Positions 21,201 to 43,881 of a stretch of DNA of 64,000 bases are shown here, piece by piece. The stretch's first letter is position 1; each line of letters starts with the position of its first letter. The position numbers and the translations under genes were made by a program. Source of the stretch: Prochlorococcus sp. AG-436-C13 (lineage in GTDB: Bacteria > Cyanobacteriota > Cyanobacteriia > PCC-6307 > Cyanobiaceae); the NCBI GenBank assembly GCA_003212695.1, contig QCPC01000002.1:62001-126000 (forward strand), given 5' to 3'. Below the pieces are notes generated by a model. It was not told the origin of the DNA. It worked only from the letters and a program-made list of their open reading frames with translations, and searched no databases.

Positions 21201-22918
21201 TTACTTGGTAAATGATAATAAGTCATTTTTTGCATTTTTAGTAGAATGATCAACATAGTTTTTGCCATTTAAAGGGTCGCCCCATAAAATTTGGCTTTCT
21301 CTTGGGCTTACAACTCCAGGAGCAGTGCCTTTTAGCTTTTTAAGTTGATGAGTTGGAACCATTAACACTGAGACCCTTTTACTTAGTTTGGCTTTGCTGA
21401 AAAATGCCGCCAAATCAGCCCCTATTTTTAAGTCAGATTCTTCTGCCGTCCCGTTTGACGATTTTATAACAATATGGCTTCCAGGACATTCTTGAGCATG
21501 AAACCATATATCACCTTTTCGGGCTTTTTTTATACTAATGAATTCATTCTGACGATGGTTTTTCCCTATATGAATAATTAGTCCACTAGGGCTTTTTAGC
21601 TTAAGAATATTATGAGCATCTAATTTCACATCAGAAGTAATTCTAATTTTCTGTGTTTTAGCTAGAAGAAAACCTTCCAAATCATATTTAAGCTGAGAAA
21701 TTTCTTCTAGTTTGGCTTTAAAACTTGTTTCATTACTTGTAATTATATAACCAAGGAATAAATCTGTTTCATTTATAAAATTAATTTTATTTGTGTGGTG
21801 TTCGATCCTTCTCTTTATAATTTCTTTTGATCTTTTTAACTTCTTTACTCTTGAATAAATATTTTGAGCTTCTTTTATATTTTCTTTGCTTGGTTTGTTT
21901 GTACATAATATTTCATCTGCCTGCTCTTTCAGTGAGTCGATATTTAGTGTTTTTGAATATAGGATCTCTTGCTTTTTTAACATTATTTCTTCGCTCTTTT
22001 TTCTCTTTTTTAGATCAACTGAAATTTGATTAAATGCTTTATTTAGTTCGTTTGATTTTATCTTTTCATTGTAGTATTTACCAAGAAAAAGACTTATAGA
22101 ATTTTTCTTTTCTGAAGAAAATCTATTAGGAGACCATACTTGATAAGGAGTAGGTCCATTTTGGTGTAGCTGAAAATTTTCTTCTTCTATTGATTTCAAC
22201 CATTCAGTCCATCTAAAAAATAAATTTATCCAAACTTTTTCGTTTATTTGTAAAACGTTTCTGTTTAGCAATTCTTCTGAAGCAATCTTTTCATCACCTG
22301 CTAACTGAAGCAAAAATGCAGGACTCATACCTTTGAAAGTTTCTTGTATGGCATCTTTGAGTGGAACTGGTATTAATAATAGATCTTCTTTCCATTGTTT
22401 ATATGATTGACTTTTGTCTGGATTAATCCCTTGTTGTGGAGGTGGCAATAAATATTGATCACCTGTACTAATTGGCCTTAGGCGAGATTTGCTCTCTCTT
22501 ATTTGCTTGGCGACTGTTATTACTTTACGCTCATTATTTAAGAATATTAAATTGCTATGACGACCCATTAATTCTATTACTAGAAATTTATAAGGTTTTT
22601 CTTTTGGACGGAATGCCAATCCGAATTCAACTATTCGCTCGAAGCCTTCTTGTTTTATTTCGATTAAAACCATATCTCTAGAGCCAAACTTTATTTGTTT
22701 GCTTAAAGTACTTTCTCCTTTGAATCTTGATGGTGCTTCTATCTCTACGATTCTGGCTGAATCTGCATGCCAACTAAACTCAATCCATGAAAGCTTTTTT
22801 ACGCTACGAAATGCAATTTGTAATGTATGTGAGTTCGGTTGTTGTATCTTTTCTATACGGCTTGGAATATCTTTTTTCGCAAATCAGAAAGCACTGCTTT
22901 CAGAGTCGTTATGTCCAT
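21201..22918 (-). pseudogene. rqcH: RqcH/NFACT ribosome-quality-control protein, frameshifted near its start
   Basis: NFACT proteins bind stalled 60S/50S-tRNA complexes and add C-terminal Ala tails. The gene opens at ATG 22918 (MDITTLKAVLSDLR), then at a run of six A on the coding strand (22872-22877 on the plus strand) the frame meets TAG within seven codons. Adding one A restores IPSRIEKIQQPNSHT and a continuous frame to 21201, about 572 residues. The rest is intact: NFACT-N, coiled coil, and NFACT-R with KGDIWFHAQECPGSH. A 490-codon frame from ATG 22673 lacks part of NFACT-N. Either a real mutation, a sequencing error in the homopolymer, or slippage-tolerant. Confidence 0.82.
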
Positions 22919-23008
22919 TGCTTGAATAGCGCAATGTTCCATCTGATTCGATGAGTGTTTTTTCTTTCCCTACTTTATTCCTTCTATCAATTGAATTAAA
23001 TTAACTGC

Positions 23009-43401: not shown

Positions 43402-43404
43402 TCT

Positions 43405-43881
43405 TCAGACTTCTTCTATTTTAATAGTACTTCCTTCACCTATTGCATGAAGATTTATTTTTCTTATATTATTTGAATATCTATGTTCCCATAGGTATAT
43501 TGCTTGCCAGATTCCTAGATCTAACCTCGAATTTTGTATGCTAATTGAAAGACTACTTGAAGTAAGAGTTGTTCTTATATGGGCAGGCATATCATCTATG
43601 CCTTCTTCAGAGTGAAGGTACTCTTGCATTTCTTCGTCTTTAAGAATGGATTTAAATCCATTCTCTGGAACAATAGCTTTCATATATGCAGCAAGATCTT
43701 TAAGAACTTTTGGATCAGCGTTCTCGTTAATTATAAGACTACAACTAGTATGTTTAGACGTAATAACTAATATGCCTTCTCTTATTGTATTAGCTTTAAT
43801 CCAATTGCTAATTGCTTCGGTGATATTGATAAAGCCTTCTCCTTTAGTCTCAATTGACAGTTGAGAAATAAATTGTTTCAC
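43405..43881 (-). CDS. yjbQ: YjbQ family protein (UPF0047)
   Basis: 158 residues. ILVITSKHTSCSLIINENAD, GIDDMPAHIRTTLTSSS and GIWQAIYLWEHRYSN carry the conserved His, Glu and Asp set. Some members show weak thiamine-phosphate synthase activity; the real role is unclear. The start is GTG at 43881. First gene of a minus-strand group with a 49-residue frame and PCD. Confidence 0.88.
   Translation of the reverse strand: MKQFISQLSIETKGEGFINITEAISNWIKANTIREGILVITSKHTSCSLIINENADPKVLKDLAAYMKAIVPENGFKSILKDEEMQEYLHSEEGIDDMPAHIRTTLTSSSLSISIQNSRLDLGIWQAIYLWEHRYSNNIRKINLHAIGEGSTIKIEEV

Follow-up and report, generated by a model that had tools for sequence, protein, structure and literature searches.

The closest described counterpart of the gene considered here is that for RqcH of Bacillus subtilis (NFACT/NEMF/Rqc2; PDB 7AS8, 7AQC), in which NFACT-N, a coiled coil and NFACT-R follow one another in the same order as in the protein encoded on the reverse strand of the window (the whole 64,000-nucleotide stretch of Prochlorococcus sp. 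AG-436-C13 DNA that was analysed). RqcH structures are the closest to the main part of this protein (E about 4e-33), the match to the B. subtilis sequence extending over residues 4-523 (E 4e-33), and Pfam NFACT_N (PF05833, 1.1e-67) and NFACT-R_1 (PF05670, 3.6e-11) are both matched on the same reading frame, all of which bears out the identification as rqcH/NFACT made in an initial annotation of the sequence. By homology with the B. subtilis protein, it would be expected to extend nascent chains with Ala tails on split 50S subunits. In the Asp-Arg motif (D97/R98), the Arg is kept and Glu replaces the Asp. A further difference is that in the assembly the frame of the window gene is interrupted after codon 25. 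Here the relevant comparison is with indel errors in single-cell draft genomes (PMC6122165), to which the locus is similar in showing a lone one-base indel in a core gene that is otherwise conserved, within a fragmented draft (with a second in psb28, described below); it differs in that the rqcH lesion does not lie in a long homopolymer, while use of the same workflow for this genome is itself inferred. The explanation that we favour, with a probability of roughly 65%, is that the break is an amplification or assembly indel in an ordinary conserved gene: the draft assembly would lack one base directly after codon 25 of an otherwise ordinary cyanobacterial rqcH, the base would presumably be present in the cell, and the cell would make a normal RqcH, with nothing lost.

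That the frame does fail, as the initial annotation had stated, is readily confirmed. Read from ATG 22918 (-), the sequence translates as MDITTLKAVLSDLRKKIFQAV and ends at a premature TAG (22855-22853), reached by the original frame past the break, while the -1 frame (DIPSRIEK...) runs on for 556 aa before closing at 21201 (-). The first residues of the NFACT_N domain are thus in one frame and its remainder in the other; the second frame has no start codon (ATG, GTG or TTG) before ATG 22673, and a start there would omit the first part of NFACT-N. When the closest orthologue (from genome G010) was compared with the window by tblastn, it aligned in two collinear parts, each in a different frame and with 22877-22868 in common, from which it follows that the resemblance is not due to chance and that the break is really in the sequence. 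No single uninterrupted rqcH reading frame exists in the AG-436-C13 assembly, the break falling between ATA and CCA at 22867-22866. Beyond it, the rest of the gene (21201-22865, -), comprising NFACT-N from PSRIEK on, the coiled coil, NFACT-R and the stop codon, is intact as had been claimed, both in its open frame and domain matches and in showing no excess of changes at invariant columns.

The position of the missing base can be established more closely by reference to relatives. Among 83 intact relatives, the column after the sequence RKK is occupied by Ile (69), Val (8) or Leu (6) and never by Asp, the next column is Leu, Val or Ile, and then comes Pro in all of them. The window keeps the hydrophobic-column Ile in the original frame (ATA, 22870-22868, -) and the Pro in the other frame (CCA, 22865-22863, -), leaving two bases (22866-22867, -) to serve for one codon, so that the base is missing past the A run. 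The initial annotation had placed a one-base deletion within the run itself, and the six A's are indeed present at 22877-22872 (-); however, an extra A in the run would yield R-K-K-D-I-P, putting Asp into a column that is I, L or V in 83/83 relatives, and the relatives' profile prefers loss after ATA to loss in the run by 3.6 bits (with the unknown residue of the after-ATA reading scored as X). The codon alignment with the 83 relatives therefore rules out a deletion inside the A6 run, and the absence of a base right after codon 25 is here counted as established. The start codon also needs revision. An in-frame ATG at 22942 (MEHCAIQA-MDITTL) aligns with Met in 77/83 relatives, while the MD at 22918 is present in 83/83, so that the conserved start is ATG 22942 rather than ATG 22918 and some 25 residues, not 14 or so, are correct before the break; this correct 5' part, of 25 codons, occupies 22868-22942 (-) and reads MEHCAIQAMDITTLKAVLSDLRKKI. 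The more general caution is that such lesions should be placed by means of relatives, and not assigned to the nearest homopolymer.

All 12 congeners that have rqcH show an open frame through the break site, as do 80/80 named picocyanobacterial relatives, whose loci were obtained from a contig scan using the alignment as query (an earlier scan with the window protein gave none). No conspecific genome was present among these 80, nor did one exact-match scan of viral contigs find a conspecific copy of the site. In the family sample as a whole rqcH is present in 237/251 genomes, and in 167/167 of those with a completeness of 90% or more and little contamination; a published survey found it in 161/162 Cyanobacteriota/Melainabacteria genomes (PMC11633108), while a literature search on RqcH in cyanobacteria under those terms returned no match. 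In two other members of the 251-genome sample rqcH is also split between two frames, the sites being unrelated: the split falls at a 7-G run in G197, a closed, single-contig genome, and at a 13-bp tandem duplication in the draft G240. Such sporadic breaks fit errors or private mutations, and not a conserved mechanism. There is also no sign of decay past the lesion. The window gene departs from 3/143 otherwise invariant columns, and the intact G010 gene departs from as many; relative-rate counts are balanced with each of five outgroups (35:35, 32:36, 39:39, 40:31 and 31:38). These results exclude an old pseudogene, and the lack of any relaxation in the rest of the frame implies that a true loss, if there was one, would have to be very recent.

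The quality of the assembly must also be considered. It comprises 1.55 Mb in 38 contigs and is 79.4% complete, and, since many relatives of the source genome are single-cell genomes, we infer that it is one too and came from the workflow of PMC6122165, for which a mean of 3.0 indels per 100 kb was reported on benchmark cultures. A survey for frameshifts, run on stretches of about 0.9 Mb each of the source genome (G000) and the reference G003, compared 419 G003 proteins (125.5 kaa, about 376 kb coding) with the source sequence and found two frameshifts in the source genome and none in the reference. One of the two is that in rqcH; the other is in psb28, a core photosystem II gene that is frame-broken at an 8-T run (G000 contig C3, about 116.8-117.1 kb; L177 16769-17120) and whose intact orthologue matches PF03912 (E 1.5e-39). 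The published indel error of 3 per 100 kb is sufficient to cover both breaks. The observed rate is about 0.5 per 100 kb, at which, by our arithmetic, a 64-kb window would contain at least one frameshift in roughly 30% of cases. The survey also returned in-frame stop events; in most of them a Met comes directly after the stop, which suggests a difference in start site. Separately, a UPF0047 (YjbQ-like) gene in the window (ORF 43405-43881, -) ends at a TGA (43402-43404) beyond which about 49 in-frame codons are open; the corresponding frame in G010 and G003 has no stop there, and the C-terminal tail of the relatives is longer.

An error is favoured by the draft state of the assembly, by the broken frame of another core gene and by the published rate of indel errors, and the intact frame in 12/12 congeners and 80/80 relatives, the presence of rqcH in 167/167 genomes and the absence of decay support this further. 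The initial annotation had offered a homopolymer sequencing error as one explanation, of which the part concerning sequencing or assembly error fits but the part concerning a homopolymer does not, the base being missing past the A run. Such errors are commonest in long homopolymers, and that the lesion lies outside one counts against an artefact, as does the rather clean state of the assembly, its observed rate being below the benchmark; moreover, a true mutation of recent date would look no different. The possibility of recent loss, also raised in the initial annotation, thus fits the data, but the considerations just listed make it distinctly less probable than an error, though by no means negligible. 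It would involve a true frameshift in the cell or its lineage, by which RqcH would be cut after about 25 correct residues and Ala tailing lost, stalled ribosomes being left to tmRNA rescue. In its favour, the lesion stands in the sequence, a tmRNA was found in the source genome, and trans-translation is essential in B. subtilis only in the absence of both rqcH and brfA (PMC11633108); a compensating second NFACT gene, which could have explained the break otherwise, was looked for in the source genome and not found; and G197, although closed, likewise has a two-frame rqcH. Against this, the near-universal presence of rqcH in the family and in the published survey indicates that loss is selected against, the absence of relaxed constraint requires that it be very recent, and psb28 is also broken in the same assembly. 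Were the loss true, AG-436-C13 would offer a rare example of a picocyanobacterium that lacks RqcH in nature, given the occurrence of the gene in every sampled family genome of at least 90% completeness. More generally, when a draft genome shows a frame broken by a single base, this should not be equated with gene loss or recoding without reads.

A third explanation, that the rqcH frame is broken in the DNA itself but restored in expression, by ribosomes slipping -1 on A AAA AAG or by transcript slippage on the A run, we consider improbable. The heptamer (22871-22877, -) includes the six A's, is in the -1 slippery phase and lies four bases ahead of the break, within 28 nt that are open in both frames, so that slipping by -1 would yield an almost full-length protein, near-normal except for Asp-Ile replacing Ile-x. 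To this extent it resembles dnaX-type programmed -1 frameshifting, and in E. coli, for which 68 genes with A AAA AAG are given, this heptamer is known to be slippery (PMC9307594). However, the locus differs from the dnaX type in having no downstream stem-loop (80 nt of downstream sequence fold no better than shuffles, z = +0.76), in being unconserved (none of the 12 congeners or 80 relatives shares the two-frame arrangement) and in that there would be no sense in two useful products, while the Asp would fill an invariant hydrophobic column. The in-phase heptamer occurs in 81/738 ORFs (11%) from about 0.9 Mb of the source genome, so that it cannot be very slippery alone and, set against the 68 genes of E. 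coli, is not strongly avoided. Runs of at least six A occur at the site in 10/83 relatives, all of them intact and with no need of a shift. Six A's are also short for transcript slippage. The suggestion of rescue at the A run therefore finds no positive support, a programmed -1 frameshift can be rejected for want of structure and conservation and given how common the heptamer is, and the heptamer looks coincidental. Less probable still, to the point that it would be very surprising, is a Prochlorococcus lineage with a truly out-of-frame rqcH from which -1 slippage on A AAA AAG yields a low level of protein, and in which the supply of a rescue factor would depend on frame maintenance. No tRNA-Lys was found in the stretches of the source genome scanned.

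Two features at the ends of the gene may be recorded in their own right. The first 71 nt (22872-22942, -), upstream of the break, fold better than shuffles (z = -2.2) and include a 6-bp hairpin, GAAAGC-AGT-GCTTTC, shortly ahead of the A run; a hairpin on this side of a slippery site is not known to play any part in -1 slippage. At the 3' end (21201-21230, -), the genes of the window and of G005 extend 9 codons beyond the point at which other congeners stop (after STKNA or similar), and the bases that follow this congener stop form an AATGAYYTATCA-like inverted repeat, conserved within the genus, which is perhaps a terminator or regulatory element.
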